Shown here piece after piece: positions 35,604 to 61,360 of a stretch of 64,000 nucleotides of DNA (the first letter of the stretch is position 1; each line of letters begins with the position of its first letter). The notes under the pieces were generated by a model. The model ran no database searches. It had not been told where the DNA came from and saw only the letters and a program-made list of their open reading frames with translations. The position numbers were made by a program, and so were the translations under genes. Source of the DNA: Hymenopellis radicata. Lineage: Eukaryota > Basidiomycota > Agaricomycetes > Agaricales > Physalacriaceae. The stretch is from NCBI GenBank assembly GCA_015501595.1, contig JADNRX010000244.1:1-64000 (forward strand). The letters are read 5' to 3'.

Positions 35604-36571
35604 TGATCTCCTTTGTTCACCACCATCACCACTTCCAATGACGAAACTCGGTATTTTCGGATCTACTTCTTTCTCCCTTCTTAATTGTTTCAACACTCAT
35701 GGCTAAATGTTCGCTCTCTCTGGATGACACCCTCAGGACTCTGGTCAAGTTGACCACGACGAACGGTGTGCATTCGCACATCTGGATGAGCATCTGGAGA
35801 ATGACTTGCATACCTGTCGTGTATTAATTCCCGCTGATACATTTCTTATTAATGTCCTCCTCGGCCTCCTGGAAGATTTGGACTCCACGACGCGGCCATC
35901 ATCAAATCTGTTCTCACCAATCCGAGCTATGTATCTTGCACGGACGAGATTTAGCAGTCTTTACCACCTCGCGAACGACCAGAACGAAAGTGTTCTGAAC
36001 GAAGAAATCGTAGCTTTAACCTGACATCAACCGCTCTTGGGATAAGGTCACCAGCGCGGCTTCTTGGAGGCGTACACCCAACCAGGGAATGTCATCAACG
36101 GGGAATGTCATCAACCTGGGCGAGCTTTAACGATACTTGACAGCTGGAGGAAAGCGGAGGCTTACGGCTGAAGCATCATCTGGTTTCTTTAGCGAATCTC
36201 TCGGAGGCTGCGGCGACCACAGAAAGACTTGATCTTTGGAAATCGACGACTCCTTTCCGCGTTCTTGAAAGCATTTATATCATATTCGGAGAGGTCAAGT
36301 ATCCTCCCGCATTGCTAAACGCACGTCAAGCAACATGTATCGAGGGACACTGCGTTCATCAAGCATACAACGTCTCAGGGGTCTGTTCTTTCTAGCACCA
36401 TACAGCACCCGTTAGCTCCTCAATTCAGACAGAACATATCGCGAAGGAATAGATATCCGTTGCTACGGAGATGATAGTCAGATGAGTGGTATCATCTGTT
36501 CAACGGTCACCGACGTATATGACATTCGAAGCAAGGAGAACATACTAGACTGTATGATACAGATCCGGCCT
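35604..36571. other. Inner right arm, no supported gene
   Basis: The counterpart of 6,749-7,710. A plus-strand frame from 35,698 (MAKCSLSLDDTLRTLVK) mirrors the one in the left arm, with differing downstream codons. I see no full gene. Confidence 0.35.
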
Positions 36572-37675
36572 TTACAGCTTCGGCCCTGGTTTCTTCAAGG
36601 CCTCAAATCGAGGTGCTCTTTTCTCCATCATTGCGGTACGAATTTCCGCCAAGTCCTGAGTTGTTGTTGTTGTTGTTACACAGCCAATTGGCCCACAGGA
36701 CCGGCTGGTCGCAAGAGGTGCGCACGCGATAACATCGTGAGATATCACCCGTACGTCTCTTGCGCTCTCTACCATTCCAGGAAGCCGAGCTCACCGTACG
36801 CCGACGGCGGTAGAACTTCAAGGGCCGGCAGGAGCATCCAAGGAGATAGGAAGTTCAAACGAGAGGAAGAGCTCGGCTTATTCGGCATACTTTCGTCGAC
36901 CCGCAATCGCCGCCAAACTGTACAGGAGCAGCCACCGAAAAATTTATGGTCCCCGAAAACAGACAGGATGCAGGATAGAGAGAGGAAATAGAACATCGTC
37001 GTTCTTACAAGCTCGGGGCGTGGTTTGTTGCACAAAATCAGCATACATTTTCGGCTTGCCTATCAAATTTCTGTTCGGGTAACGGCAAGACAAGCACACG
37101 CCTATCGCGCTCGGGTCGTGGCTATCAAACTGAACGTAGCATACGCCTATCGAGCTCGGGTCGTAGCTTTCAACGTCCTCAAAACAGGAGACCATTGTAG
37201 TCTGACCAAAGGACAAAAAATGCTTGTGCCTATCGAGCTCGGGTCACAGCAGAACGTAGCACACGCCTATCGAGCTCGGGTCGTGGCCTTCAACGCGCAA
37301 AGAAATGCAGGTAAGGCAAAGGTGGCATAAATGGTGGTCGATGGTGGGGTGCTGATGGGTGGGTGGTAAAAGGTCGAGTGATCGTTGAGATCGGCATGGA
37401 TGGGGCAAGAGGTCGACGGATCAACTCACGTTCGTTTGCAGAGCAGCCGAGTTCCAAATCGCAGCGTAGTCCAAGCTTTGCGCGATACTAAGGGAGAACG
37501 ACTTCAAGATGAGGTCGCTCACCTATGATCAATGCCATGCTTTCTATCAAATGTGATAAATATTCATCAGACCAAGAGGGCTGAATATTGAGATATACCG
37601 TGCTAGCTCGACGTGATAAACATGAGAAGAGGGTTCCGAGACAATCAACCAATTAGTCGAGAATTCTGAAGCCAT
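36572..37675 (-). pseudogene. Hydratase/isomerase remnant, right arm
   Basis: The counterpart of 5,584-6,748. Exon 1 (MASEFSTNWLIVSEPSS) is intact from 37,675. Then the segment matching left-arm 5,719-6,481 is missing (763 bases, the catalytic core). Next come the exon SIAQ.. to ALQTN and, after a 714-base element, DLAEIRTAMMEKRAPRFEAL ending PKL. It cannot encode an active enzyme. Its intron donor at 37,521 is GT, whereas the left copy has GC. Confidence 0.9.
36662..37375 (+). mobile_element. TTG-repeat/GGT-ended element, copy 2
   Basis: This 714-base insertion is absent from the left arm, where the flanks are joined (6,650-6,672). GAGT at 36,658-36,661 and 37,376-37,379 is a likely 4-bp target duplication. 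Inside are four copies of a repeat with core CTATCGAGCTCGGGTCG at about 37,103, 37,146, 37,229 and 37,268; copy 1 at 18,559 has two. No protein is encoded. It sits in the last intron of the hydratase remnant. Confidence 0.88.
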
Positions 37676-37994
37676 TTGAACTTTGAAGTTGGGGAGAAGA
37701 AGGGACTCCGGAGCGGCAATCGGGTAACATACATCCGGTTGCCGATTACTTACTTGAAACGGTTGGTCGGGTGCTCTGCAACGTGTGGCTGAGCACACAC
37801 GTTGTGCAGAACCGGGAGGTTGTACTAACAATCACCTGGATGCCATTCTTCTTCTTCATCAGTGAAATACTAGCTGATCGAGTCTGCTGATCGCGCTAAC
37901 CCCGCAACCGCCACGGACTTCAATGTGGCGGTTATGGCTGACAAGCGCCCTAGAACCGCCATTCACTCTGCCCCTTTACGTTTGTACGCATTCG

Positions 37995-38003
37995 TATATA
38001 AAT
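37995..38003 (+). promoter_or_regulatory. TATA box of right alcohol oxidase
   Basis: TATATAAAT lies 49 bases before the ATG at 38,052. It is conserved with the left copy. Confidence 0.6.
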
Positions 38004-38051
38004 GACCAGTCGTCGAAGGTTATTTGGCAGTTACTGACTTGATCTGCGACC

Positions 38052-40682
38052 ATGGCGGACACATACGATATCATCTTCGCTGGCGGTCAGTAAATTCTTG
38101 TCTGGTCATCTCACAAACGGCTCACTGTATATTTCCAGGAGGTACCTCGGCCTGTGTGACAGCAGGACGTCTGGCCGAACTATCACCATCGCTCAGAATA
38201 CTGGTTCGTGGTTGTGCTACGTCGATCGTGTGAATTGAACTTGACTACGAAGCTATAGATTATTGAACCTGGTCCTCACACCGAGAACGTCGACGTTCAT
38301 GTACAACCGGCACGGTTTCTGACGAATCTTGCATCGGAAACCACGTTTTTGCGTTATAGTTCCGAGCCCAGCGACGCAGTAGGCGGTCGAAAGATTGTCG
38401 TCCCCACCGGGAAATGCGTCGCTGGTGGCTCCGGGGTAAACTGTACTGCTCTTCCTCCCTCCCTTTGAACTAGTATTCACGCGTCTTGATTAGTTATGAT
38501 GTACACGAGGGCCTCTGCGTCTGACTACGACGACTGGGAGAAGTTAGGTAACCCAGGATGGGGTTCCAAGGACTTGATTCCTCTGGCCTGCAAGGTTTGT
38601 GAACCTATACGATACTTCGTGCTCGACTGAGCTTGTTTGTTTCTAGTTGGAATCATACGAGCCCTTCGGTGACGAGGACATGTCGACCCACGGTTCGTCT
38701 GGTCCCATACAAGTTTCTCCCGGCGGGCACAGGACGGACGTCGGCGAACAGTTCCTCGAAATGGCCGCCAAGTACGACCACAATCGATCCTTTGCCAAAG
38801 ACGTCAACGATTTCCGCACCTGTGACTCATATGGGGTATGTTTCTTACATCTCTATTTGAGCATTTTTCTGAGAAATTATCGCAGCGTTGGGCGAAGTGA
38901 GCGCAATCAGATATCGCGTTACCTGGATTCTGACGCTCCGTAGATACATGGGCCATCAAAGTGGAAGGCGATCAGACGCGGCGCATTTTTACATCTATAA
39001 CAAACGTCAGAATGCCAATCTGGTCATCCTCACTGGTAAGCGGGTCAAGCGGGTCATCTTCGAAGGCAACACCGCATGTGGTGTGGAGTGTGTTGATGAT
39101 GGAGGGAGCAGTGCTCAAGTGTCGGTGTTCAAGGCCGTGCGTCTTGTCGTCCTCTCGGCAGGTGCTTTTGGCTCCCCGACTATCCTCGAACGGTACATCA
39201 TTTCCGTCTCACTCAAGAAGTTAGAGATCTGACCACTCCACACTGTTGGCAGGTCTGGTATCGGCGCCAAGAACATTCTAGGTGAATGCAAGATCCCTCA
39301 AGTCGTCGATCTGCCCGGGGTTGGAGAAAACTACAATGGTACCTTTGTCTGCCTTCCTGCTATTATATTTGACGGACGACATTGTAGATCACAACCTCCA
39401 TGTACCCGCATACTTTGTCGACGAGAGTACGGACACAATGAACGATATCTTCGGAGGAATTGACAAGGAGGCTATAGCGAGTACGGCCTTTTTCGCTTTC
39501 CCACTGATGCCGTGGCTTATGATATGTCTTAGAACACGAAGCTCTTTGGAAAGAGGGTGGTAGAGGACTCATGGCTCAAAAGTAAGTTTCATAGTGTCTT
39601 TCCCCTAGGCATGCTTAACACTCTGCGCCGCTCAGTGGTATCGACGCCGGTATCAAAATCCGCCCCACGGCCCAAGAAGTCGCTAGCCTCGGATCGGATT
39701 TCCAGGATGTCTGGAACTCGTTCTACGCGCCCGCGCCCGATAAACCTCTGTTTTACATCGGACCTATTGCGGGGTGAGTTCTGCATGTATTCCTTTCCGC
39801 AAGGTAGTGACCGTTGCTTAATAGATACATCGGGAAACACCCGTCAAACCGAAGGCTTCTGCACATGCTCTGTTACGCTGTACGTGCTGGTCAATTGACC
39901 CTGCTATTTCACGGTTGAAATGACTTGTTGTCACTATCAGGAATACTTGAAGTCTATCGGACGCGTTCACATTGCGTCGGCCGACCCACATACGCCACCC
40001 TACTTTGATTGCGGTTATTTAACCCAGTGCGTCTGTTCTCGTCAGACGATTCCGTGACTGACCCGTGAACTTCTAGCAATTTTGATGTCATCGCCGCTAG
40101 GTGGGCGTATAAACGCCAACGAGAATACATTCGGAGGATGGCGTGCTACAAAGGAGACCATGCACCCGACCACCCCCAATTCCCCGCAGGCAGTCCGGCC
40201 GCTGCCGCCGAACTGTTGAAGCCAGTTGACCCCACCGCGCCGGATATTGTGTACTCCAAAGAAGATGATGAGGCGATTGACGCCTGGCACCGTCAGACCG
40301 GTATGTGCTTCAGCATCGGCTACTTACTTTTTCTGGGCTGACAAAACTGTAGTTGAAACAACGTGGCATTCGGTATGCTGCTCTCCCGAACACTTTGAAA
40401 CTTTGCGCTGAAATGTAATGTAGCTGGGAACGTGCGCTATGAAGCCGAGAGCCGCCTCTGGCGTTGTCGACCCGCGTCTGAATGTTCACGGCGTCAAGAA
40501 TCTCAAGGTTGCTGGTGAGTCGCTATTGCTCGTCAACGTACTCCGCACCTATTGATGTCTTGTTCAAAGATATGAGCATCGCCCCGCTCAATGTTTCGGC
40601 AAACACGTACAACACGGCATTGATCATTGGGGAGAAGGCGGCTCTCATTATCGCAGAGGATCTCGCGTTAGTGAAGGCTTGA
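38052..40682 (+). CDS. Alcohol (methanol) oxidase, GMC family, right copy
   Basis: A paralog of 2,538-5,163. Exon reading gives MADTYDIIFAGG joined to GTSACVTAGRLAEL, LIIEPGPHTENVDVHV, VPTGKCVAGGSGVN then FMMYTRASASDYDDWE, SGPIQVSPGGHRTD, SGRRSDAAHFYIYN, SAGAFGSPTILERSGIGAKN, and GVGENYNDHNLHVPAYF. A 52-base intron at 39,482 leads into KHEALWKEGGRGLMAQNG. Then follow DVWNSFYAPAPDKPLFYIG, TTWHSLGTCAMKPR (catalytic His) and DMSIAPLNVSANTYNTAL. It ends in VKA without PTS1. The GGSSAVN-type motif has G where the left copy has A. All GT-AG introns keep frame, so it looks functional. It is divergent from the ruined hydratase. Confidence 0.9.
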
Positions 40683-40956
40683 ACCCAACGTACAGTCTTT
40701 GCAAAGGTTGTAACTCAAATACACATAAGTTCGAAGCTGGTCTCAATGTACATGTAACATAGCAAGAGGAATGGAAAATAGCCGTATTTACGCCACAGGT
40801 CTCTTCTTGACTTTGAACTAGTAAGTATTGCGCGTGCAATGGGTTTTCCGAGGAAAACAAGATCGAATTGCAAACACGCCTCCATGTGCTACATAACCAC
40901 ACGTGGTCCGAAAGCCTAGGTTTCCTCCTCCCGTTCTCAATATCTATATAACGTCT

Positions 40957-43900
40957 GGCGGCAGAGGTGGTCTAGCGGTTACCTACTGCCATTGCCGATT
41001 GATGTGATGATTCGCGCTTTTTGGAGTTCGACTTGCTGTGTGTCGAAAGAGCTGTCATTATCGCGTCTCGCTCCCTCCGCTCGTGGGGTCGCTTGGAGCC
41101 TTTTGCAAGTCCTCTGCTGGCAGACTAGTAACTCATCGGTTGTGTGCTGCCGTTTAGGGGAGACTACAACAAAGCATTTTTGGCTCCCACTTGCAATTGG
41201 AATGCGTCTTCTTCTCAAGCGACCGGGAATAGTATGCCAGACAGCATCGACCCGGGCCTCGAACGCCGACTCGGAGCCCACACGTATTTGGGCTCTTCAT
41301 CCCGCGTTAAGAGGAGCAACGAGGAGAGGAGGAAAGGACACAGTTATCAGTTATCGCGCGGAAGTTCTTTTCTGGTCATAGGAACTTGTGCGTCAACGGA
41401 AACCGGGGGGGGGGGGGCAGGAAAGATGTGAGACCTGCACCCAAGGACGCGACGACCAGCTTTGGTTTTACTGCGGAACGACCCCGTGGCGGCAGAGGTG
41501 GTGCAGCGGTTGCTACCTATTGTCATATGTCCACGAGTATGAAGGCTAATTTTTTAGGTTCTGCTGCCGACTTGCCCAGGTGATCGTTCAAGCCAAGGAA
41601 GAGGGTGTGCCTACGCAGAAAACATTCCGTAGTCTCTTTGCTTGGCTTGGAGGACGTACTACCTCCTGCCATTCGTATGCTTAGGGTTGTTCCATTTTTT
41701 AGCCTGAGGTTTCGGCTGTCGAAAGACTCACTGACTTGCCAAGGTGACATTATCACCCCACTGACTCGTCAGTCCGTGAGCTCACGGAGAGATTGAGACC
41801 TTCAAAATGCAGCCGGGTTAACTGGGAGCCACGAGGAGGCTGGCGTGGGAAGGGGGAATTGTGGCGACGTTTCACGCGGCCGGCAGCAGCACGTGATCCC
41901 ATGTTTCGTCTTTCCATCCTCCCACCATCATCAGTCGTCTGGCTTGCTTTTGTTCAGCGAGAATAAAATGTATGACATTCTCGCAGCTCTCAGAAACAGG
42001 GATCTAAGTGCCAATCTATAGGCACCGACGTGAAACTGACGGTTAAGCGCTTCGTTACCGGGCTGCAAGACATCCAAGCCACAAGATATGATGTTCGTAT
42101 GTGTTTCCGTTTTAAGCTGTTAACTGAGAGGAATCCAACTAATTTTTTGCTTGCTGCGCGCAGGTTCATCTTCTCCCCCACGTCTACCCACCTACGCATG
42201 ACCTGAATCGGAAAAAGAGCGGCTCCCTCCGTTCGTGAGCCTTTTGCAAGTCCTCTGCTGACAGACTCTAGTAGTAACTCACCGGTTATTTGTTGCCTTT
42301 GCTGCTGTCCAATGCTCTTGTGATTCACTCGATTCCTAGGCTGGCCATGGCAGAGGTGGTGTAGCGGTTACCACGCCATACTTCGACCATGATCCTAGTC
42401 TTGCGGGCTTTGAGGACAAGGAGCCCAGATACTTTGTCCTGTCGTCAAGTGGCTGGTTGGTTTCCGTCAAGCTGCTGCATTCCATGGCGGCAGAGGTAGT
42501 GTAGCGGTTGCTATAACCTACTGCCATATACCAAGGAGTGTCGTATTTTTAAGGTTTCCGCTTCCTGTAGAACTGACTTGCCGAGGTGACATTATCGCGT
42601 CTCGTTCAGGAGGATGAGGTGTGGTCGAGTGGTCCACTAACACGGCACACGCTGAAATTCACTGGACCTCCCTCAAAATGCAGCCGGGTTGAGTCCTAGA
42701 AGGAGTTCAACTAGACTTACTCGCCTGTTCTAGGTACGCATGTCCTGAAACTGGACAGGTAGCGACTCGCATCTTCTTCTTGTAGGTTGAAGCCTTCTCT
42801 GCTAAGAGCCACATTGACGTAACGGTTACAAGTGTAGCTCATGAGAGAATGCTGCTTTCGGGCAATTTTTTTTTTTGCCTGGACACGAAATCGCAGCCGT
42901 GGCACGCGCGCATTTTCGCGAAAGTTTAAGTAATGGACGCCACCTCTGAGAACTCTTCCTTCGCTTTCATTAGAGCAATGCGTTGGAGGACTTTTTCCGG
43001 ATGCAAGTAACTTTGGGAGACGATTCGTGGCAAGGCATTGAAGAACGCTACATCGCGCGGTACATCGGACCGGGATTCCGTATGCTCTTTTCTTCTCATT
43101 GTCATTACAGTGGACCCGCTTGACAGGAGGAGGAAGGAGGAGAGCCGCAAATGCGTCAACCGTTGCCATTTCCCAGGGCGGGGTGAACTCGCCTCCTCTT
43201 AGGACCCTCCCCGTCTGTCTTGTGGATTGCGTACTGGAGGACGACGACCAGCTTTGGTTTTACTGCGGAACGACCCTGTGGCGGCAGAGGTGGCGCAGCG
43301 GTTACTACCTACTGCCATGCATTGGGAATGGCAAAGCGACTTCTTTATGTTCTGCTACCGACGTGCCGATAAAGAAGAGAGGATCAGATTGGGGAGTGTC
43401 TGGACGGAAGACACTCCCCGTAGTCTCTTTTCTTCTTGCGGGCTTGGAGGACAAGTTTCCAGATACTTTGCCCTGTTCGTCAAGCGACTACTTGGCGGCA
43501 GAGGTGGTGTAGTGGTTACTGCCATACGCTTGTTCCGAGACGATTCCATTTTTTAAGTTTCGGCTTCCTGTGGCCTCGCCTAGAACCGGGTTGACATTAT
43601 CGTTTGGAAGAAAAGGATGGCGCTGAGGTATGAGGAATATTATCCCCCTGTTAAAGCCTAACTCATCAATTGCGTAAATTCAGACCTCGAAACGCGGCCG
43701 ACTTGACCTAACGGTTAATAGGCATGTATACTCGTTTGTCATGTTTTTTTTTGCTTGGTGCCGATTCAACCCACCTCTTCTACGCACGACGAGGTGGCTC
43801 TCTCCGCTCGCATCTTCTTCTCGTCGCCTGGAGTCCTCTGCTGCAACGCTGTACTGTGCCACTAGAGCATGAGCGGTACATCGGACCGCGATTCCGTACT

Positions 43901-46900
43901 CTCTTTTCTTCTCACGTCGCAAAAACTTTACGATGAGCCGCGCGGCTGCCTGAAGGAGGACACCATATTCAGACGACACACCGTTTCCTGTCCTCACACA
44001 CACGCTGGGCCCCGATGATGCGAGCTAGTCGAGCGGCTTCCATCACGCAGAGGTGGTGGCGGCCATTTCACATGGAAGACACGGGGACGTACTAGCGCGT
44101 GAGAGAGGGATGCATTTGGGTGGGAAGATGTGAGGAGGAGGCTTACGCGCGCCTCTTCTGACCGCCCGACGTCGCCACCTTTTGAGGAGGAGACATACAC
44201 ACCGCCTTTTGGCTTTGACTGTTGTGGCCGTGGTACCTGTCCAGTACAATCCTGACCGGCTTACCGAGGAAGAGGAGGCGCGACTGCCTCTCGGCGCGGA
44301 TATTCAGAAACCATCGACAGCAATTAGTTGCCAACCATTAACAACTCTTTCTCGCTGTGTCATGCTCTCGCTCAATCTATCCGAACAGCGTCTAGGTATT
44401 TCCCACCCCGCAAGTACTTCCACTGTAAACTTATTGATGGCGTTCAGGCTGTCTCCCCGGAGTTGTCGCTCCAAAGTCTTCTTTCTCAAGCCTAGTTTGC
44501 TGCTGGCACGAGTAACTCAGCGGTTACTTGCTGTAAATGTGTTCTCACAACCTGCATTTTTAGCTCTTCCCCTTGTACACACTCAGAGGTGTTCTCTTTG
44601 CTCACTGGTGATTTGTTGCTGCGATTCTTGCATACCGAATGAGCAGGTTTGACGTAGCGGTTGAACGTGTGTTTGTGTTCGTAGCGGCTAGCCCAAGTTT
44701 TTTTTCCTGACCCACAGTCAACTGTGCGCGTAATACTGAGTGCTCCTCGTTAGAGCAAATGCCTTGAAGCACTTGAAGTTCCGGACGCGCCGTTTGTTTT
44801 CAGGCCACGATTCCTGGCAAGGCAAAAAGAAAACTGTACTGACGGCCCCAGATGAACGACATTTTACGATGGGCCGAGGCAGGTCGCACCGTTCAGAACG
44901 TGGAGGAAGCGACGAGGGATTACGTTGCTCGACAACCGGGCCCGATGAGAGAGAGTTGGAAGGTATGATGTCGAAGGAGCCGTAAGAACAAGGAGCAAGG
45001 CGGAGAAGAGCGTCTGGACGTCCCGCTAGGTGTGTTCGTTCCCCTAACCTCACCCACCAGCTTTGCGCAGCATTTTCCCCTTTATTTACCATATCCCCTG
45101 CGCAGAGGTCAAATGAAACTTGCGACTTGGAATTGACGCCTACTTGTATCCGCTCCCTTCCCCAGCGTGTGCTTCTATCGCGCTCGTGTTTCGAGGTCTG
45201 CGGAAAAAGGATTCCGGGATACGGAACTCTACTTGAATACTTACTATTCCAGCTACCTGCAGCGCTGTGGCTAACTGGCTACCTCGCTACATGCCTCTGC
45301 TAAGACTCCATGAAATTTTTGGTGACTCCTCAGCAGAAACGTACTAGGGACGGGTAGCTCACTTACTTATGAACAACTTTCTTTGAACTCGCGATTCCGA
45401 GTCTTCTGTCCGTACTATGTGGCGAGCCAGTTTGACATAACGGTTAAACTGGACATGGCTGTTAGGCTTACAGTTGTTCTTTTTGCTTGTCCTGGACCCG
45501 AAATCAATCCGCGTTGCAATCTCGTCGTCTCGTGCTGCAGAGTGGCGCCGGGTTCTTCTTCCGGTTGGAGTTTAAAGAGACTATTCCTAGCAAGGGTAAA
45601 AAAAACTCGAGTTGGCAGTCGCAATTTGCTACCTGTGCCGTTAGACCACGGGCGCTGCTAAGTATGATTCAAAAGATAACTGTGGGATGCCTACGGAATG
45701 CGCGCACCAGCGAGAGCGACTATGCAGCCATGAATCAAGCCTTGCAATAGTTATATGTGTTAGGAAGCTGAGAAGGAGAAGAACAAGTTGGGAGTCGTTT
45801 GCGACCTGAACGAAAGCGTGGGAGATCATTCCTGCGGAAAGCCGCTTCGAAAACATCAACTTATATGTGACGCACACGCCGACGCATATTATGACGTTAG
45901 CGTCGAGGTATCTAAATTTCTTACTTACCGCAACTCAGCTGACAAGCTTCCAGCTTCTGTGGCGAAGAGAGCGTGTTGTCTTCGCGTGGAATGCGCGCAT
46001 TGCAGTGGTGAGATGCCATGAAGCGTGAAAGCCGGCTTTGAACGGGAGGCATGGCAGTAGAGAGGATGGGGCGTGTTATGATTGAGTACGCATAACACAC
46101 GCCTGTACGAATTTCCAGGAAGAATTGAACGAAGGAGAAATGAAGAGGCTGCGAGACGTGAATTTGTTCATGTTTGGACATCCAGACCGCACTCCTAATG
46201 AACATCACCCGGGCGCGTTCGTCCTTCACGCCGCGTATAAGGCAGACGATGATACACCGAGGACGAAGTACACGTCTGTCAACGGACAACTCAGTGCACG
46301 TACTCAAACGATCGAGTGGCTGGCGGCAGAGGTGGTGTAGCGGTTACCTACTGCCATGGATCTTCCGAAAAATGCATTTTTAGGCTTCTGCTGGCTCTCT
46401 GCGAGGACAGATAATCCTTGCAAACAGAATCGGAGTGGAAAGGACGACTGTCATTGAGTCAACGCGGGGGGGCCTTCTGTCCTCGAACGCCGTTGGAGCT
46501 CCTCGTCATGCATTAGACATTCATATGTTCCCGTACGCGCTTCCTCACGCCCAGTCTTCGCCCCCGGGTTTCTTCATTCACAGCCTCCCGTCTGCCTTGT
46601 ATGGTGAAGGAATTGCGCGTATTGGAAGAAGAGCCAGCTTCAGTTCTACTGCGCAATATGGACTTCGCGCACGAGAGAGGAGGAGGCGGCGAGGCTTTCT
46701 ATGTGTCTCGCAGTCAGCGGCTATCAGCTCTTCTGACCGCCCCGTCTTCAACGATGTCGCGTCTGCTTGTGCACGGCACAGAACGCCCAGACTTGCTCTT
46801 GCGCTACACTTGATTCCTACTTGGCGAAGGGTGACTGGTGAAGCGGTTACCTATTGATAGGTGAATATTGTTTCCTCTTTTTGGGTTTAACGTCTGTGGT

Positions 46901-47860
46901 CGTGATACCTAATCCCAACCGACTCGCCGAGGACTCAGCCTGGAGGCGCGACTGCCTTCTTCATTGCCCGCGGATATTCAGAAACCCTTGACAGCGAATA
47001 ACGGTCCGACTCGTGCATTGTAACAATGTAAGAGTTTCCTTGCGCTCGCTATTAATCTTCTCTCCGGCGTCTCCGTCAGTTCTTCAACATATAAACTGAT
47101 CCGGGCTTTGCGCGCTCCCTGCGTCTTTGTCTAATCGAGCTCGTCGCTTCAAAGCCTTCTTTTTCAAGTTTGCTACTGGCACGAGTAACTCAGCGGTTAC
47201 TTGCTGTACCATCATATCGCGAGTAGGCCGATGCATTTTTGGCTCTTCCCTTGTACACACCCAGAGGTGTTTTCTTTGCTCCGTGATTTTTTCCGCGATG
47301 CTTTGTCCTCTCGACTTGAATGAATGAGCAGGTTTGACGTCGCCTCTGGACGGGCTGCTGCTTTTGTTGCTGGTGCTTTGATTTTTTCCTGATTCTGCGT
47401 TGCTGCACGGGGATCATCATTCTCAGAGTACTGAGTGCTCCTCATTGATTTCAAGTTCCATTAGAGCAATACCTGGTACTGGGAGGACACCAATGATGTT
47501 GGGAGACGATTCCCGGCAAGGCAAAAAAAAACTAGAGGGCCAGCTAGGCATCGGCAATTGCTACCTGTGCCGTTAGAGCACAGGTGCTGATAGGATTCAG
47601 TACTCAAGGCGAGTAATAGTATATGGGCGGAATTCTGCTTACGCTTTTCGTTTCGCTGATGCTACATTTACGATGGGCCGTGCCGCGGGAGGTCACAGTA
47701 TTCAGAAGCGGACTGGAAGACGGGGGAGGGAGTACGTTGCCGCGCTCGACAACTGACAACCGGGCACGATGATGCATTGGTAGAGAGAGCTGGAAGGTGG
47801 GATGGAGATCGTTGCCAGTGAAAGTTTGTGCAATAGTAGCCAGTCTAGCTTAACGGTTAT
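40957..47860 (+). repeat. Field of tRNA-head-like modules
   Basis: About 7 kb without a gene but with at least 16 modules. One family starts GGCGGCAGAGGTGGTGTAGCG plus GTTA and closes with CTGCC: about 40,957; 41,488; 42,345; 42,484; 43,279; 43,496; 46,320. About 55-70 bases later these have ATTTTTAGG then a TTCGGCTTCC-like string, and often GACATTATCGC. A second family has TTGACNTAACGGTTA: 42,814; 43,702; 44,648; 45,431; 47,840. A third has GAGTAACTCAGCGGTTACTTG: 44,509 and 47,177. Others are at 42,620, 44,021 and 46,830. The heads match the tRNA A box (TGGTGTAGCGG and variants), and the later string weakly resembles a B box. Reverse heads occur (GTTAGAGCA at 44,750, 47,463, 47,570). Confidence 0.72.
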
Positions 47861-48905
47861 ACTGATGCATGATGCCGGGGAGAGGAATTTTTAGTTCGTG
47901 CGAGCCTGGGCCTCAAGTCATTGTTTACTGTTCAAACGTTCAAGGGACAGTGGATGCCCGTTCCTGACTCAAAGGGCGACATTCAAATCGCATTCTGAGG
48001 CGATGTACATTTGAAGGGTACAAGTCCGAACTTGTCTTCTCCCCGTTATCTTGTGGTGTGTCTCCACACAGCTTTCACCGATTCACCCGCACCTCCTCCT
48101 AGCGATCCCCTCTCAATGGATGGATTGGGTATGCGAGCTAGAACCATGCACGTCTCTGAGTCTTCCAGCGGTCCTCAGTGTCTTAGGTACAGACAGCCCA
48201 ATGTCTCCCGAGCTCATATGGCCGACTGGCTATTTGCTCCATAGTTGTGATTCGCAAGTACATTTTTTCTGCTACCTAAGCCTTTGCGCTTCATCCGGCT
48301 TTGCAGTGAACAGTGGCCAACTCTAATGGGGGTTTCGACTCGGAAGAACGTGGGAAGAGGAGCTCCAAGCTCGCCTTTCTCGAGTCCAGCATATCTACCG
48401 GTAGACAAGATTCGGGCGCAAGTTATTTTGGGGCCTGCGACTCGGACAATGACCACTGGCAGCACTGAACGGCCGGTCCTAAAACGAGAATGGATATTAA
48501 CCCTGAAAGACATTAACAATTTTGCTACCCTCCCCGTACTCAGACTTGCCATGACTCCTGACGAAAGTTCATTTGAACTCTCATCACAAGGGAAGGCTGG
48601 ATACCCTGGACCCAGAGCCGCCATTTTCGACGTGTTTTGGACTGGCTTGGCACCCGCTCCGCGTGCACGCTTAGAACTCAGTGCATTCTGTAGCGGCATC
48701 TTCACAATACTGGCGTCCCCCAGCAACCGGGAACGCGTCATTCCCCCCTCACCCCGAGCGCGTGAAGTTTTTTGGCGGCTGCCGCCACAAACGATGACAA
48801 TCGTGCCAACCTCAATACATGAAGTCTAGAGGAGAAGTCCGACCGACGCAGTGAGACGTACATGAAGCTCACAACCAACATGTACGACGCGTAAATCACT
48901 CCTAG
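47861..48905. other. No supported gene
   Basis: Overlapping frames of 181 codons (48,284-48,829, plus) and 175 codons (48,214-48,741, minus) cover the same bases. I recognise neither, so at most one is real. No other signal is seen. Confidence 0.35.
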
Positions 48906-49400
48906 TCAGGCGATACAGCCGGGCCTATAGGACGCAAGCCAGAGCATCATTCTCCACCTCGTCTTCGTGTTGTCGTTGTGTTTCAGAGCTCGGATCAGCT
49001 TTCTGTAAGGTTTTGGTGTGCCAGGGATGACAATGACATCACCCGTATCGTACGAGTCGTCAAAGAAGACGGACGTATACGGCCAGCCGATAAGTTCGAT
49101 ACCTGCGATGGAATGGGGGAGTGTATCCCGCGGTGAGCAAAGGAGCTTGGCGAGCTCACTAGCATTGGCCGGGCAGGATACGACGAGCGTGAGAGATGGA
49201 AGGTAATGCCGACTGGTGTGGGTCCAAGTGGTGTGGACGAGTGCGCACGATAGAAGAGCGGCCTTGTCGTAGACCAGATAGGAAATGATAAGGTCGACTA
49301 GCTCTTGGGGTACACGCTCGAATGAGCCGGTCGTAGTATGTAGCCGGGGCTGTGGCTGGGTCCGCTTGGTGAACATGTTGCCGATGGTTTTAAAGATCAT
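48906..49400 (-). CDS. Short F-box protein
   Basis: A single exon of 164 codons: MIFKTIGNMFTKRTQPQP, then the F-box FERVPQELVDLIISYLVYD and ALLSCALVHTTW, then LASYRPGCIA at the end. Agaricomycete F-box proteins of this type usually run several hundred residues with leucine-rich repeats, so this one is short and may be truncated. Part of its DNA is duplicated at 49,590-49,815. Confidence 0.6.
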   Translation of the reverse strand: MIFKTIGNMFTKRTQPQPRLHTTTGSFERVPQELVDLIISYLVYDKAALLSCALVHTTWTHTSRHYLPSLTLVVSCPANASELAKLLCSPRDTLPHSIAGIELIGWPYTSVFFDDSYDTGDVIVIPGTPKPYRKLIRALKHNDNTKTRWRMMLWLASYRPGCIA

Positions 49401-49589
49401 GATGGTTACAGACAGAGGACAGAAGGTGGCTGTGCATCTCGACAGGACCTAAACCAGATCTTCGCGGCTGCGACCCTTTATTCACCATAACCTGCGATGC
49501 TCTCCAAAGGAAACGACCCCGGTCTCTCTGCATCGACTACAGCGCAACTTCTGATGCACTTTCCGACCTGCAGGACCAACAGTGCCAAT

Positions 49590-49815
49590 ACGAACGTGAA
49601 GCTCACGACCAACATCCGCAAATCACTCCGAGTCAGGCCTGATGCGCAAACACCTGGGCCTGAAGGAAGAAAGGCTAAGCATCATTCTCCACCTCTTCCT
49701 CGTGCTGTCGTTGCGTTTCAGAGCTTCTCTATACAGCCGTGGTGTACCGGTTTGAAAGATCATGATGATTACAGACAGAGGACAGTCGGTGGATGTGCAC
49801 TTCTACTGAGCGTAA
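49590..49815. pseudogene. Remnant of a tandem copy of the F-box gene
   Basis: Bases 49,600-49,725 match 48,857-48,990 (shared atcattctccacctc and gttgcgtttcagagct types of strings) and 49,760-49,810 match 49,393-49,440. The central coding part is missing. It reads as a second copy collapsed by an internal deletion. Confidence 0.65.
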
Positions 49816-49836
49816 GTTTCGTAGGCCACATGAGAA

Positions 49837-50288
49837 TCAAAGCCCTTTTCCATCAACTTTCTTCAGTGTCAAGGAATTGAGGTCGACATCGTCAAAAGTC
49901 CGAACCTGTTACACCAAAGCTTCAGTAAACCCCGGTTCATTGGTGAACTGACGACCCAGCTCACGTTGATCCCTTTCATGCACTCGAAGGCCCCGGGCAG
50001 CATAGATGTCCCGAAAATACTCGTGCCACACTTGGGGCAAAAGTCATGTACGAGTCGGCCTTGGCCAAAGGTGTAAGACTGAAATGAAGATCCATCGTGA
50101 GTAAACCAAGAAAAGCAGAACTTGATGGCATCATCCTTGAGATAGACGAAGAGGTAGCTGTTGCGTGCGCAGATGGAGCAGTTGCAGCTGATAACGTCGT
50201 GCCCGCTCTCAAGAGGGGGCGAGATGTTCGCAGAGAAGCTGATCTTGCCGCAATGGCAGCTGCCCTTGTAAGTCGCGGAGGATGACAT
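49837..50288 (-). CDS. GFA/CENP-V-like zinc-binding protein
   Basis: The family is named for glutathione-dependent formaldehyde-activating enzyme; most fungal members have no proven substrate. The start is MSSSATYKGSCHCGKISF with the CxC ligand pair, then CNCSICARNSYLFVY (CxC..C), YTFGQGRLVHDFCPKCGTSIFG (CxxC), and KGIN. After an intron at about 49,910-49,965 comes VRTFDDVDLNSLTLKKVDGK ending GL. About 130 residues is normal for the family. The middle stretch FCFSWFTHDGSSFQ may be an unspliced 45-base intron, since it is in frame either way. Confidence 0.83.
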
Positions 50289-52469
50289 TGGGTGTTAAAG
50301 TCGGGGGACGTTGACAGTACCAAGTTCTGAGTCCAGAATGGGTATGTCTCGTACCAGTCCCAATGTCCGGCTGAAAGAAGTTAGGTGTATGAACGTTCCC
50401 AGCATAGTTGAGCACTTGTAGAGCAGGTGCAGAAGTCGTCTCAGTTGATTGTCGGGACCAAGTCGGAGCACAGGCCAGGAACGCCGGATTCAAGCACGTG
50501 GCACCCTCAACTCTTTCCACGTCCACGTCCACTGCCATGTCAACGAATCGACGACCTTCGAGCGACCGTAATCTTTAAATCAGGATGCATCGTCACCGAC
50601 GCGGAAATGGGTTTGGTACCCACTCCTTTCTCACTCCGGCCTCCTGCTGACTTGTGGACAACTCGGACAGCACACGACTATTTCTCTTTCAATCGCTCCT
50701 GGCCTCACGCAGCTTAGCGCCGTGCTCCCTTACCAGACGTTGGTGGTCTTGTTTTCAGCTCGACGATCTCTCATTGACGTGGACGCGGAGCGAGGACTCA
50801 AGTCTCGCAGAATATAATCAAAGAGAATTAATGGCACCTTCCGCCCTAAAGAGTCGGTAACGTATCTCTCGCCGTTTGTAGGCACGATATTCTTCAAGAT
50901 GTCGCTGAGCTTTTTTTCTCCTTGTTCTCACCGTTGAACAGGCCTTCCCGTTCTATTCTTTCTCCGCTATGTGGTAATAACAGAGAGATGTTCCCCAGCC
51001 ACAAATGTCTGCGTTGATCACCTTACTAACCTTCGCTCGATATATCCCTTTTTCGGGGCTGCTAGACTCTATTCAAGTCTTTCGTCGATATTCAGCAGTT
51101 GTCCGCCGAGCGCATCGGCTTCTTGAGGAAGCTTCCCTGGACCGTAGGAGAGATGGCATGGCCACGATGCCTTCATGCGGAACAATGGAAGTCGGTCTTT
51201 CATTTCAAGTTCGTCTGCACATGAGACCAATCTCCCAGATAGTCTACCGAGACTGTAAAGTGTCCCGTTCTTCTCGGCCCTCAAGTCTCGCTAACAAAGG
51301 TCGTAGTGCCATTTCCTTGGTCATCTGCTACTTGCCTTTCCGGGGGCCGTCTCGTCTTGCGCTAGACGAATGCTCGCGGACGAACATGCATGGAATCAAA
51401 TCGGAGTTCGACGTCTCCCACCACAAGAGGCTTAACTGATAATCACGACCGCGTGATCTGGTACCGGAGACTTGTGTGTAAACCCAACTCTCTGTATCCG
51501 TTCTGAGGAACACGAGGACGTTAGTAATATCAATCATCAGACTTCATGGGTTCAGACCAAGGTGAACGACAGTTGATCCGCGGTAAAGTCTCGATGTCCG
51601 GTGTCCACATCTTCTATGGTCAACAGTATCGCGCTAGGCATTCATCCGTTCCTCGACATTTACTATTAGGGACGCCCGCCCGTGCCGACTGTTATCAGTG
51701 ATCTCGCGTCTCTGAGAATCAGAAACCAATGCTTGATCCAGTTCGTTATAGTGAATCGATAGCACCGATTTCAAGTCTGGACTCTGGAAGTACGGTTATT
51801 CCACCCCAACTTAACTCATGTTTAGTGCTATCAGCGGTCTTGCGGCCGCAGGGGGCTACTGGCGTCTTAATTCCGACCCAGCACATCCATCATCAACTAA
51901 GGAGGCGTATGGAGCCGCCGAGATGGCCAACTTGTCGCGCGCAAACCGTGGATGAAACGGTCCGGGCGTTCTAGGTGGAAGATCGCGTCAAGAGTAGATG
52001 CACAACGGACACGCTCAAGCTCGTGGGCAGCGATGGGTGGAGTCGTAATATGCTCATCGGTTTGATCCAACACGTGCATTTTATCGAGCGGGTGTTAGAA
52101 TGTGCTGATTCGGATTTCCAGTTTGGATTAGAAACGGAGGTCGTGAGACGCATCTTTTGGAGAACTAGGGTGATTGCGCGCGAACTAAAGTGGCCTATGG
52201 GTGGTATTAATCTTAGCTCGCAATATCCATGTACGTGTCGGTTCAAGTGGCGTTAACTATTTTTTTACGAAGGTCGTTTGCATAGTAAAGCTGGGTGGTC
52301 TTCGTACTCGCGGCATACCATAAGCCGCAGACGCTTGAACGTGGTACCATTATGCGAACACGTCGGAAGGAACTTGGAGGATGAAAACGAAATGGAAGTG
52401 ATATCTTAAAAGATGATCAAGGACAGGAACATTTTGAATGGAAAAATCCGAGGCACGACAACTCTCGTA
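50289..52469. other. Long gene-poor interval
   Basis: The longest frame, 51,005-51,439 (plus, 144 codons), has no recognised motif and is overlapped by open minus-strand frames. I see no repeat or RNA gene. Confidence 0.35.
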
Positions 52470-52965
52470 AGATTAGTTATTGTAGAATAACTAAAATTGG
52501 TCCTAATAACTTAAATTAGTGTTCAACTCGACGAAATACGCTCATCAATAACTGGAGTTGGCAAAATGCAGGTTCAATAACTGAAATGGGGAGTGCCGTG
52601 CCGCTCCTGCTTGGGGACCATGGCCGCCGGAGTGCGCTCTAGCGTGGCGCATCAACCCGCCTCTTTGATGTAGAGTTGACTGCTGTGTGCGAAGGTTTTG
52701 TCTAAGACTTGTTGGGGAGGCGGTTTCAGGACCCCGAGGAGTGCAAGGCAAGGGAATGGATGTGACTGAAGTGTCCACATTCACCACGAAGGCTCCGTGG
52801 ACAAGGGGACTGAGTATGTTACATTTGATCACCCAATCTACAGAGGCGGCGGCAGTTCTGGAAATACGCGCACACATCGGTGGCAGTGCCATGGAGGGCT
52901 GTCTCGCTGATTTCAGTTATTCGCCCAAATTTAGTTATTACAGCTATAACTTAGTCTCTTTAAAC
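52470..52965. mobile_element. AT-rich inverted-repeat element
   Basis: The left side (from 52,474: gattagttattgtagaa, then taactaaa) is mirrored by the right side (to about 52,960: gttatagctgtaataact in reverse, then taaatttggg). Several ataactgaaa-type strings repeat inside both ends. The length is about 490 bases with no protein. Exact edges and target duplication are unclear. Confidence 0.5.
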
Positions 52966-52969
52966 AGAC

Positions 52970-53022
52970 GTTCTATACACGATCGATTTCGGTAGTGTGA
53001 GGTGCGATCGATGTGTATAGAG
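52970..53022. repeat. Small hairpin
   Basis: The arms tatacacgatcgat and atcgatgtgtata face each other over about 20 bases, between two inverted-repeat elements. Confidence 0.45.
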
Positions 53023-53030
53023 TCTGTCGA

Positions 53031-54052
53031 TTAAGGTGGGGTCTGTACCGTTATTGGGTTTATTACATAAGTTACCCGGTGCCGCGTCCTCCACCATTTC
53101 CCTTGCGCGTCGCCATACTCTTCAGCGAGCTGACACCGCTGCACAAACTCATCACCAGCGCTGCCCTGGAGCTACAGCCACGGTTACTGCACTATGAAGA
53201 TGCTCGCATACGGCTCCGCAGGACCGCGCAGGACTCGGCGCACGATGACGAATCGGCAGCAGTCCGAAAAGTACCACTCTTTTACTGCCATGGACGACGA
53301 GCGCAGTGCCCGCAGAAGTGCGTCGGTGGACACGACGTCCCGGCAGGACCATATACGAGCATGGAAGATGTCCTGGCAACTGGACTAGGACCAATGACGC
53401 GATATAGCGGTGCAACAATTTCCCGAGCGACGACGCTGAGAGTACTAGTAGCATTCGCAGATGCGCGTTGGATGGCTTGACTGTAGGCGGGATTGGGTCG
53501 TGGTTGTGAATGGGACATCACGTATGATACTAGATGACTCCATACTATTCCATCGTGCGTCTCTCTCTCTCTCTGCCACTCTGCTTGCTCCGTTGCTTTG
53601 GGCGCGGAAATTCTTACCGGTGGCCATCACCGCGAAGGGACGTCCTTTTTCGAGCCCACGGAATCTACTCCTGTTGATCTCCTCCAGAATCACCTAGCGC
53701 CTCCTACTCCTGCTGTTACCACTGCTTTCTATTCCGTATCCATAACGGAGTACTCATGCAACTGTGCCCAGGCCCCATACGCGCCATCGTCGCGCCGCCA
53801 GCGCGTCACGTCTACGTTTGGAGACGCCATAGATGATGGCAGGTAAATGGTTGGGCTGCGAGGGATGGGACATAGCTCTAGTTTTCTTTCTACCGACATT
53901 ATCTGGACAATACAATTTTTTCTTCCTGCTCTATCGATGTGTGCGCGCTGCTTGAGCCTTGCTCTGGCGTCGCTCTATTACTTTTCGGCCGTCTGAGTGA
54001 GCTTACGTAGTTGACCAAAATAACTTCAATCACGGTACATACCCCACCTTAA
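53031..54052. mobile_element. TTAA-flanked inverted-repeat element
   Basis: The ends TTAAGGTGGGGTCTGTACCG (53,031) and the reverse complement of 54,033-54,052 match with one mismatch; the similarity continues about ten bases more. Both outermost tetramers are TTAA, as in piggyBac-type target sites. Inner frames (53,013-53,480 and 53,461-53,697) resemble no transposase. It is probably non-autonomous. Confidence 0.6.
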
Positions 54053-54259
54053 ACACTAGACTAGCTATAACTAATCTTACGATAGTTGTATATAAGTACT
54101 CGAAAAATCCTCAACCCGGTGCGGGATGCCAGCCTTTGCCAGGGTTACGCACCGAGAGTCTCTGCATCTAGTAGGTCCAGAGAATGCAAGCTCGACAAAA
54201 GGAGGGTGCAAAAGGGTTTTACAGACATGACACCATTTGAGGAAAGTCCCAATTTTCTC

Positions 54260-54267
54260 TATATAAG
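54260..54267 (+). promoter_or_regulatory. TATA box
   Basis: TATATAAG lies 61 bases before the ATG at 54,328 of the interrupted secreted-protein gene. Confidence 0.55.
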
Positions 54268-54405
54268 CCAACTGAACAAGCCAGAATCCTCAGACTGCAG
54301 TCCACCAGCCTCTTTCGCATAAACAACATGTTCAAGCTCACCGCCACATTCTTCGCTCTGCTCACGACCACCGCCTTGGCGATGTCCGTCGTAAACCGTG
54401 CGGAG

Positions 54406-55228
54406 TAGGGCTTGGTTTACTGTACGGTTTCGACCGCAAGTTCGCATAACGCGTCACGCGGGCCTGGGAACTGAACTTAGCTTAAAACATAACACATCAC
54501 GGACCTCAAATTCAGGGTCACATCGCCCAAAACGGCAAAAATTTCGCTCCCGCCTACGGCGGGACGTCCAAATATAGTAATTTAGACCCTTGTGCCTGGT
54601 TACGAACTTGTTCCATATAAGTTCGTAGCATAACACGTCACAGGCCGCGAACCTACGGTCGAAACCGTACAGTATAATAGATTCAAGGATTGAAAACGGT
54701 TTACAACTTTTTTCTCAAAATACAGGTGTTTCTAACGCGGTTTTTAACTCGCGGCCGAGATGCCCGAAGCGGTCCACGTGACACAAAAATTTCGCTTCTC
54801 GAGTGGCCATAAACTCCTCTTGTGCCATTATTTTCACCTCCAGTAAGCATATACTCCAGTATCAAGTGTAAATAGAGTCTGAATGGCAATGTGTTGTGCA
54901 TATGAGAGCTGTTCATGCAATGGCGGGTGAGTTGCGGATTGCTGGGATTGCTGGGAACCCTCAAGTACTCGGTAAATCTGACCAAAGTGCTCCGGGATGT
55001 TCTTACTGAACTGAGGATATCGGGTATACTAGAAAAATCTCCAACCAGACTTATGTTCAGCCTTCCGCAAGGCGCGATTGCGACGCGTCGGGAGGCAGGA
55101 ACATCACGTGTGCTGACATAATTGAAAACATTAAAAACAGGGGGGTCCAGCAGTTGGTCAGTTTATATCGTTTAAAACAGGCTGTTTTAAACGTTGTTTG
55201 CAAACATCTCCTTACTAACCAAGCCCTA
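54406..55228 (+). mobile_element. hAT-like MITE 'E', copy 1
   Basis: The ends are TAGGGCTTGGTT and its reverse complement. The flanks GTGCGGAG (54,398-54,405) and GTGTGGAG (55,229-55,236) form an 8-bp target duplication with one mismatch. The length is 823 bases, of which 253 (plus TA) belong to a nested element. It is inverted relative to copy 2 (57,809-59,167). No transposase is encoded. The 8-bp duplication is the hAT hallmark. Confidence 0.88.
54420..54672. mobile_element. TA-target MITE 'C', copy 1, nested
   Basis: 253 bases with ends CTGTACGGTTTCGACCG, flanked by TA on both sides. The uninterrupted sequence (ggtttataatag) is present in E copy 2 near 59,145, which is direct empty-site proof. 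A second copy of identical length lies at 57,516. The TA target suggests Tc1/mariner-type mobilisation. Confidence 0.9.
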
Positions 55229-55680
55229 GTGTGGAGAGCATCTCTCCCATCGCTTCGAACTCCGGCATCGAGCCCGGTCCCGATGCCATCACCATCTTCA
55301 GGACGTGCACCGATATCAACTTCGGGGGGTTCTGCGTCGTCTGGGTCTCGGACGTCTTGCCCTCCGGATGCGGTAGCCTAAGTGCTGCCGGACAACAAGA
55401 CTCCGTCTCGAGCGCCTCGACTCCTGCGGGCATCGCGTGTACCCTGTTCGAGTAAGCAATTTGTGCTACCAGCATGCATATAATGAATGGTCGTTGACTT
55501 CTACGCTCAGAGACGCGGGATGCTCGGGAAGAACTCAGCTTGTCGTTGGAACCATCAACGACTTGAGGACCGTCGGGTTCCAGGACACCGCGACGTCTTT
55601 CAACTGCCGTTCCACTTGAACGGAAGTTATGCTCAGCGACATTGAAGGTGATATATTTCTCCAGAACAAAGCATGATATA

Positions 55681-57768: not shown

Positions 57769-57941
57769 TAGTTGTATCTTCATAATCGCATACCGACTCG
57801 GACGACAGTAGGGCTTGGTTAGTAAGGGGATGTTTGTAAACAACGTTTAAAACAGGCTGTTTTAAATGATATAAACCAACCAACAGCTGGACCCCCCCAG
57901 TTTTTAATGTTTTCAATTACCTCAGCACACGTGATGTTCCC

Positions 57942-58446: not shown

Positions 58447-58537
58447 ATGTTCCCGCCCCCGACACAAGCCCCGACACGTCGCAATGGCGCCTTGCGGAAG
58501 GCTGAACATAAGTCTGGTTGGAGATTTTTCTAGTATA

Positions 58538-60017: not shown

Positions 60018-61360
<1,343 letters not shown>

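Follow-up and report, generated by a model that had tools for sequence, protein, structure and literature searches.

Arrays of A-box hairpin modules with variable spacers in a mushroom genome resemble a built-in guide-RNA library

Closest described systems

CRISPR arrays and Cas12-type crRNAs comprise many units in which a constant 5' hairpin scaffold is joined to a variable 3' guide. The yeast U6 gene, SNR6, encodes a short RNA and possesses an internal A-box, an oligo-T terminator, a TATA box and a B-box located downstream of the terminator, and the Neurospora milRNAs are fungal small RNAs that have been proposed to originate from Pol III transcription and have double-stranded precursors. 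A scaffold plus guide arrangement is also described for the omegaRNAs of TnpB/Fanzor in passages of one report (PMC10432273), and passages of three others present the type I piRNA (21U-RNA) genes of C. elegans as Pol II genes that have their motif upstream and give a 28-nt precursor (PMC6436959, PMC7917550, PMC11262695). Helenus TRIM elements, LTR retrotransposons with a tRNA-like Pol III promoter, occur in Agaricomycetes according to passages of a further report (PMC10886601); these elements (TRIMp3) are characterized by a pair of LTRs with the tRNA-like sequence, a PBS, a PPT and a 5-bp target-site duplication.

The arrays described here lie in a 64,000-nt stretch of the genome of the mushroom Hymenopellis radicata, which we analyzed as a whole and refer to as the window; 18 resequenced strains of this species are reported (PMC10847261). 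Like Cas12-type crRNAs and omegaRNAs, they combine a constant scaffold with a variable, guide-like part, a likeness of sequence arrangement; unlike CRISPR and Fanzor units, each module carries its own A-box and T-run, the modules are roughly 100-1000 bp apart, no common adjoining gene was seen in the stretches fetched, the TnpB/Fanzor domain has no match and, for the four spacers searched, no protospacer was found. Similarly to the C. elegans genes, the modules are clustered, short, independent units, each with a constant promoter-like element, its own short sequence and a termination signal, whereas in the mushroom the constant part takes the form of a hairpin, contains an A-box and probably lies inside the RNA. 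The internal A-box and the oligo-T terminator are shared with SNR6, but neither a TATA box nor, by the generic consensus, a B-box was found. Unlike the milRNA precursors, the spacers are unpaired, and the missing B-box sets the modules apart from Helenus.

We know of no family that this arrangement fits; it resembles a built-in guide-RNA library. Nuclear small RNA genes of Pol III type in which the 3' arm is hypervariable are not a class familiar to us, and none was found among the open-licence papers searched, for some searches among the top-ranked matches listed. Recognition devices under conflict are marked by sequence that changes between two constant ends and outpaces its flanks in doing so. 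If the RNAs exist, genome-encoded guide repertoires in fungi become directly testable; if no selection acts on the spacer, it represents a remarkable hotspot of mutation, with its position fixed by the hairpin and the terminator.

Anatomy and distribution of the modules

The region 40960-48268 contains 22 modules or decayed heads of five head families (F1-F5), where a preliminary description of the same DNA had listed more than 16 modules of at least three families. The order within a module is a short hairpin with the Pol III A-box (TRGYNNARYGG), a variable unstructured spacer and a T-run, so that what was previously called a T-rich spacer is in fact two parts, the variable spacer and the T-run behind it. 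On the plus strand, F1 is represented at 40960-41022 (hairpin head, variable spacer and T-run), 41491-41555 (with a spacer present only here and in the duplicate array C136), 42489-42550 (whose C136 copy has lost sequence by deletion from the 3' stem and the spacer start), 43283-43345 (a head with an interrupted T-run), 43497-43554 and 46325-46381, along with an F1-like module at 46836-46882, the head of which is altered in the C136 copy, and a decayed head without a T-run at 42349-42379. The plus-strand F2 modules are located at 42811-42876 (T-run of 11 nt), 43700-43752, 44646-44705, 45429-45484 (four paralogous copies of which carry four different spacers), 47331-47387 (decayed head) and 47842-47892 (spacer rebuilt in the C136 copy), and those of F3 at 41126-41181, 44510-44561 and 47183-47240, with a decayed F3 head lacking a T-run at 42272-42295.

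Two families had been overlooked in the preliminary description. F4 (45654 and 47586) occupies the minus strand at 45598-45654, with a rebuilt spacer in the C136 copy, and at 47523-47586. F5 (45268 and 48219) is found on the plus strand at 45258-45320, where it was detected through an island of divergence and a family-free scan, and at 48210-48268, just past the limits previously drawn, again with a rebuilt spacer in the C136 copy. Likewise unnoticed was a partial copy of the array, in inverted orientation, at 294-1701; it consists of minus-strand modules of F1 (1637-1701, 1131-1195 and 294-351) and F3 (1479-1534). The arrays themselves are duplicated.

Pattern counts place the heads far above chance in this region. 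On both strands of 40500-48000, three head patterns with at most 2 mismatches yielded 8, 4 and 3 matches, compared with means of 0.07, 0.01 and 0.02 in 100 shuffles. The family-free scan, which combined an A-box with at most 1 mismatch, a stem of at least 6 pairs and a T5 within 20-80 nt, identified 14 modules in 40900-48400 (shuffle mean 0.29, maximum 3), 2 in 5000-40000 and none in 49000-64000; some entries of the module lists, such as one on the minus strand at 58091, are chance matches admitted by the loosest mismatch limits. Modules also occur elsewhere in the genome and the head-to-T-run spacing is non-random, that is, this is not the single, irregularly spaced locus which the preliminary description had reckoned with as a possible outcome.

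The A-box consensus was matched, on average, at 8.7, 8.3, 7.5 and 8.2 of 9 positions in F1, F2, F3 and F4, respectively (28, 46, 12 and 5 distinct heads, scored by consensus match only), compared with 5.7-6.3 in shuffled heads. Because the heads were gathered with family patterns, the evidence lies in a box common to four families with unrelated stems and not in the single scores; the A-box-like head previously attributed to several families is, in this sense, borne out. The heads are near-palindromic. Stem covariation in F2 was considered and rejected, given that pairing (297/368) did not exceed column shuffles (mean 289, maximum 301).

The spacers are 13-37 nt long, with family medians of 25-28 nt, and the T-run follows about 45 nt after the A-box start, also across unrelated families. 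From the A-box core, the distance to the T-run, sought 8-60 nt past the head, is 41.8±4.1, 43.0±4.6, 42.2±2.9 and 40.9±5.5 nt in F1-F4. In a wide search of the fetched loci, the first downstream T5 was located 35-60 nt from the A-box start in 106 of the 217 heads and at 11-34 nt in none, compared with 4 heads that have a downstream A5 in the 35-60 nt range and, on the upstream side, 13 with T5 and 3 with A5; T5 was missing from the right place in 111 of 219 head-like matches, both head sets being drawn from the loci read in the respective analysis, with array-free parts included. T5 is found at the module distance in none of the 33 heads in module-free parts of the window and at 3.5% of random positions. 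Genome-wide, A-box + N22-40 + T5 produced at least 152 matches, a count in which long T-runs figure repeatedly and some places recur, against at least 12 for the reversed pattern, whereas the numbers for A-box + N1-19 + T5 were 4 and 6. The mean A-box-to-T-run distance of the genome-wide matches was set aside because the pattern itself limits it, and the set of 135 modules comprises those with a T4 run within the search range. The modules thus show two features of Pol III small-RNA genes, an A-box (by consensus) within the unit and, at a constant distance from it, an oligo-T terminator.

The B-box-like string at tRNA-like spacing that had been noted previously was not supported: within 60 nt downstream of the T-run, the best match scored no better than shuffled (5.46 against 5.51 of 9 positions in F1, 5.16 against 5.41 in F2, 5.14 against 5.36 in F3 and 5.09 against 5.09 in F4) by a generic consensus, which a diverged fungal B-box could escape, and no offset from -250 to +400 stood out. 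A search for an upstream TATA-like motif revealed nothing regular. With neither element detected, the Pol III promoter appears incomplete by the known rules. ARAGORN reported 0 tRNAs in the window, in line with the earlier statement that no module folds as a full tRNA, and a search of 38000-52000 against Rfam returned no family at threshold, only three weak matches below the gathering score, which agrees with the earlier impression that no named family is of this kind.

Spacer variability

The head remains constant while the stretch between it and the T-run changes. In F1, the information content of the first 23 head columns is 1.2-1.9 bits and that of the inner spacer columns 0-0.3 bits, and across the spacer columns of both F1 and F2 it is close to zero. 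Different loci have just the head in common; in the loci fetched, the same spacer is seen again only where a block is duplicated. The fold, bit, B-box, TATA, pairing and Sm tests used each distinct spacer a single time (n = 120 to 124).

The array in C136 is a duplicate that is 97% identical to the one in the window. In the best 4.8 kb of this comparison (1.8% diverged), 4 of 4 islands of divergence fall inside modules, from the A-box to the end of the T-run, although three of these are within 340 bp (45286-45624), a stretch whose remainder likewise exceeds the average divergence; two other islands, at 46141 and 48169, fall outside modules. Among 18 modules, a tally that leaves aside four decayed or altered heads, 12 spacers differ by at most 2 changes, replacement or heavy rebuilding affects 5, and the last one carries a deletion. 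For nine pairs with a mean flank identity of at least 0.96, there was at most 1 spacer change in 8 and ten in the remaining one (the deletion), and for five pairs at 0.92-0.96, at most 1 change in 2 and at least 11 in 3. When the worse flank was 80-95% identical, spacer identity was 0.65 or lower in 19 of the 36 pairs; random spacer pairs have a mean identity of 0.457±0.061. In reciprocal-best pairs, the spacers diverged on average only about 2-4 times as much as the flanks (0.043 against 0.015, 0.263 against 0.065, 0.203 against 0.119 and 0.337 against 0.186).

The spacers do not fold (mean z +0.22±0.07). Some appear palindromic by eye, and a second hairpin within the spacer was considered but rejected on the same mean z. 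Pairing of the spacer with the 5' leader, for which convincing folds can be drawn by eye, was rejected as well given that own pairs were no better than swapped ones, with mean ranks of 0.46-0.51 over four leader lengths; against shuffled spacers, pairing was slightly in excess (z -0.11 to -0.29), and for F1, with the leader set to 12 nt, the value against other spacers was -0.33±0.17. There was no excess of pairing between the spacer and the tail, nor of sense or antisense matches to the spacers in their own locus.

Possible function and rival explanations

The sequence itself displays how the modules are built, their A-box, their fixed length, a variable part enclosed by constant ends and the multitude of arrays; transcription by Pol III and the exact RNA ends are what we infer from them. 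We consider the chances to be evenly balanced that the modules are small-RNA genes of Pol III type with a functional variable arm. Each gene would begin with a constant hairpin, the loop of which is spanned by the A-box, continue with about 25 nt of variable arm that is unpaired, and close with an oligo-T terminator whose distance is almost constant, and would produce an RNA of about 60-70 nt with a hairpin scaffold, a variable 3' arm and a U-tail. The variable arm would be the business end, most likely involved in recognition, by base-pairing or as a ligand, and specificities could change largely via block-wise rebuilding of the arm. Because the arm most likely recognizes something, the arrays might represent a guide-like RNA repertoire; guide function, taken by itself, is a guess that we regard as doubtful.

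The main rival is that the modules are transcribed and the spacer is functionless, transcription and hairpin formation making it hypermutable while selection preserves only hairpin, length and terminator. Elevated mutation beside the conserved parts is a known trait of Pol III genes, some related spacers differ by few point changes (3 between C548c 3061 and C251 1565), intermediate divergence is common among the less similar pairs, with a mean excess over the flanks of only about 2-4 times, and no target was found for the four spacers searched. However, the length is tightly constrained and the change between the window and C136 is bimodal, with 12 of the 18 near-intact, 5 rebuilt and 1 with a deletion; on balance, we consider this explanation rather unlikely. 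The modules could also act as DNA-level sites, with hairpin-forming A-boxes bound by TFIIIC or a recombinase and with breakage and repair varying the junction of the hairpin and the T-run, as the near-palindromic heads, several block-like changes and the missing B-box would allow. Such sites do not account for a T-run on one strand and one side, in the place of a Pol III terminator (106/217 against 4, 13 and 3), and in the stretches fetched the array types did not share an ORF; we regard this possibility as distinctly improbable. Extra-TFIIIC sites are B-box sites; of the TFIIIC insulator initially suggested, the A-box fits, whereas the variable spacer and the fixed T-run are left unexplained.

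The derivation from mobile elements of tRNA origin (SINEs or Helenus-type LTR elements) or from decayed tRNA arrays, also suggested initially, is compatible with the D-arm-like A-box heads, the duplication of the arrays and the occurrence of Helenus in three Agaricomycetes, as given in passages of the report cited above (PMC10886601). A SINE would be expected to combine a B-box at tRNA spacing with dispersed repeats of a single body, and a tRNA gene or pseudogene to retain the cloverleaf with its anticodon and T arms. This derivation is contradicted by the lack of a B-box and a tRNA body, by a fixed T-run that, about 45 nt after the A-box start, comes too early for a tRNA, and by spacers that change while the head stays constant, with near-zero information in F1 and F2, only the head common between loci, and the four searched spacers unique to their own modules or duplicates; we view it as very unlikely. 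Some T-runs read ATTTTTG, which could suggest Sm-class RNAs (snRNA-like or spliced-leader) with the T-run as the Sm site, but this candidate was rejected as hardly credible: the A-T4-6-G form occurs in only 16 of the 122 T-runs, the 45 nt after the T-run fold barely better than shuffled (mean z -0.22±0.11), and no Rfam family reached threshold.

Under the small-RNA gene interpretation, the target and the protein partner of the putative guides are guesses. With up to 3 mismatches genome-wide, four spacers (two from the window, one from C136 and one from C752), that is, 4 of the 122 distinct spacers, searched in their own genome only, had no match beyond the modules they belong to and the duplicates of these, and thus no target. 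The F1 head was not found in viral contigs, and there were 0 matches to the TnpB/Fanzor zinc ribbon (PF07282) at E <= 0.001, although introns or divergence could hide one. A far-reaching version of the guide hypothesis, which we hold to be quite unlikely, is a programmable recognition repertoire in a mushroom nuclear genome, with single-guide RNA genes numbering well above a hundred, each made of a constant hairpin, a variable 3' guide and a terminator of its own, that exchange guides as blocks in conflict with viruses, transposons or rival nuclei, a eukaryotic counterpart of CRISPR arrays that would act via Argonaute or an unknown protein. Piwi-domain genes are present in the genome. In the fetched stretches, no ORF was common to different array types; the ORF clusters join duplicated copies and four pairs of loci (L010/L015, L051/window, L016/window and L016/L017), and among 10 ORFs compared with Pfam, one contained a reverse transcriptase domain and one had a sub-threshold O-fucosyltransferase match.

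Head families and module anatomy

Hymenopellis radicata is a saprotrophic member of the Agaricales, and the genome searched comprises 75.5 Mb in 1405 contigs, with the window representing positions 1-64000 of contig C568. The heads reported in the preliminary description exist and are well above chance: three head patterns (up to 2 mismatches) occurred 8, 4 and 3 times in 40500-48000, compared to shuffled means of 0.07, 0.01 and 0.02, and a family-free scan identified 14 modules in 40900-48400 vs 0.29 in shuffles, with 2 in 5000-40000 and 0 in 49000-64000. Where at least three head families had been proposed, we count five (F1, F2, F3, F4, which lies on the minus strand, and F5), to which 22 modules or decayed heads in 40960-48268 belong. 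Head-pattern and module searches also detected an inverted partial copy of the array at 294-1701.

Each head consists of a short hairpin whose loop is spanned by an A-box. The A-box consensus TRGYNNARYGG is matched, on average, at 8.7, 8.3, 7.5 and 8.2 of 9 positions in F1 to F4, respectively, compared to 5.7-6.3 in shuffled heads; because family patterns were used to collect the heads, the telling point is not these scores but that families with unrelated stems all share the box. The spacer that follows is 13-37 nt long (medians 25-28); its inner columns contain 0-0.3 bits in F1 and F2, and up to 1.4 bits are reached near the ends in F3 and F4, where copies are few and related. The spacers showed no folding (mean z +0.22±0.07). 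The spacer is followed by a T-run that measures 4-11 nt, and 5 or 6 nt in 91 of the 135 modules collected for comparison.

The position of the T-run is nearly fixed relative to the A-box, with a mean distance from the A-box core of 41-43 nt in each of four families (F1-F4). Among 217 heads in the fetched loci, the first downstream T5 lies 35-60 nt from the A-box start in 106 and at 11-34 nt in none; for the same 35-60 nt range, the controls gave 4 (A5 downstream), 13 (T5 upstream) and 3 (A5 upstream). A slightly different count places T5 in position for 108 of 219 heads, with the peak at 45-49; the corresponding figure is 0 of 33 for heads from those parts of the window that have no modules, and 3.5% for random positions. 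Neither a regular TATA box nor a B-box was found at the modules in searches by generic consensus, and the B-box-like string at tRNA-like spacing, described previously, is not supported. ARAGORN detected no tRNA in the window, and Rfam searches of 38000-52000 produced only three matches, all under their gathering scores.

Spacer change between related modules

The cleanest case of variability is the comparison of the window array with its duplicate on contig C136, which may represent the second nuclear haplotype or else a paralogue of this locus. Outside local islands of divergence, the two arrays are 1.8% different in 40920-45740, and all four islands fall between the A-box and the end of the T-run of a module: at 42514 (F1, where a deletion affects the 3' stem and the beginning of the spacer), 45286 (F5, a family unrecognized before this test), 45458 (F2) and 45599 (F4). 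Three of the four lie within 340 bp, a stretch the rest of which also shows above-average divergence. The blocks further right, shorter and more diverged, contain six more islands. Modules account for three of them (one at 47860, a pair in the 48219 module) and a decayed head for another (47341); those at 46141 and 48169 lie outside modules. Module-free control blocks showed 0 islands in 3083 columns and 1 in 2852 columns. Across 18 modules, a tally that leaves out four decayed or altered heads, the spacer was kept (at most 2 changes) in 12, rebuilt in 5, and affected by a deletion in 1. The module at 45429 has four copies (C568, C136, C1017 and C473) with four different spacers, and flanks that are 88-93% identical over 280-303 nt downstream and 68-93% identical upstream.

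Among same-family pairs, which are not independent because modules are shared between pairs, spacer identity was at most 0.65 in 19 of 36 and at least 0.9 in 10 of 36 when the worse flank was 80-95% identical; with the worse flank at 95% or more (n=7), the respective numbers were 1 and 6. Random pairs gave 0.457±0.061. In 42 reciprocal-best pairs, mean spacer divergence was about 2-4 times the flank divergence in every similarity class.

The window and C136 also share segmental duplications, inverted and direct, at 188-7092 and 36226-40868 (90-100% identical). Among the few other differences between them is a 13-G run at 41405-41417. The array flank remains co-linear with C136 for 4 kb more (48410-52144; 87-97%), including an ORF at 48906-49448 that we take to be F-box-like, and with C1017 up to ~51 kb. 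At the right end of the window, there is a methyltransferase ORF (H. radicata protein match, 94% over 45% of the query).

Distribution across the genome

The modules extend beyond one locus. F1 heads (up to 3 mismatches) were found in at least 68 places vs at least 3 for the reversed pattern, F2 heads gave at least 77 matches vs at least 16, and F4 heads occurred in at least 11 places, with 0 for the reversed pattern among the matches listed. The general pattern (A-box-CGGTY, 22-40 nt, T5) gave at least 152 matches, among which some places are repeated and long T-runs are counted more than once, vs at least 12 reversed; with the gap shortened to 1-19 nt, there were 4 matches vs 6 reversed. Additional head types occur elsewhere (contigs C193, C324, C529, C575 and C584, among others), where two modules have a common head and different spacers.

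Contig C752 holds 23 of the 77 F2 matches listed, and a dense array of F2-type heads spans C752:142239-183415, from which 11 modules were read. In the stretch fetched from it (176701-183600), heads form clumps in which they follow one another at ~150-260 bp; their leader is conserved and their spacers differ. At least one C752 spacer occurs both at 172101 and at 183186, which adds a further level of duplication. On C548 (three fetched loci), the unit pairs an F1 module with an F2 module ~200 bp away, and its repeats carry new spacers in both.

Possible products, targets and partners

The simplest reading of these sequences is an array of putative Pol III-type small RNA genes of ~60-70 nt. Of this, the layout of the modules and the way in which they change are seen directly, and both transcription of the modules and the type of polymerase are what we infer. 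The predicted RNA would start with a constant 5' hairpin, followed by an unpaired variable 3' arm ended by oligo-T. A scaffold that stays constant, an arm that varies and a length that is fixed suggest that the arm is the part that recognizes something; that it might act as a guide is a guess. The strongest rival explanation is a hypermutable spacer free of selection; the fixed length, and the bimodal pattern seen in the comparison with C136, the closest one, argue against this, though not decisively. The SINE and decayed-tRNA origins suggested in the preliminary description each fail on tested features, as does an Sm-RNA reading. Helenus elements, a further candidate, were compared on part of their features.

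Nematode 21U-RNA genes are close in concept to the putative small RNA genes, as are CRISPR or OMEGA guides (PMC10432273), but defining features of each are missing here. The titles and abstract openings listed for open-licence papers on fungal and Pol III small RNAs, SINEs, Fanzor, milRNAs, tRNA-gene mutagenesis and H. radicata describe no such genes.

When four spacers were searched singly against the genome (up to 3 mismatches), each matched only its own module or its duplicate; in the fetched loci, the only recurrences of a spacer were at the corresponding module of a duplicated block, and pairing of spacers with their own leader, tail or surroundings was no better than that of other spacers. 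Therefore, the targets, if any, would be foreign, imperfectly matched, outside the four, or not nucleic acid. In the fetched stretches (up to 10 kb), no ORF is common to different array types, and the TnpB/Fanzor zinc-ribbon family had 0 matches in the genome, where introns or divergence might hide one. Several places in the genome have Piwi-domain genes (18 matched pieces). A reverse transcriptase domain (PF00078) is located at L013:8596-9999, in a fetched locus, ~7 kb past the last module found on C136.
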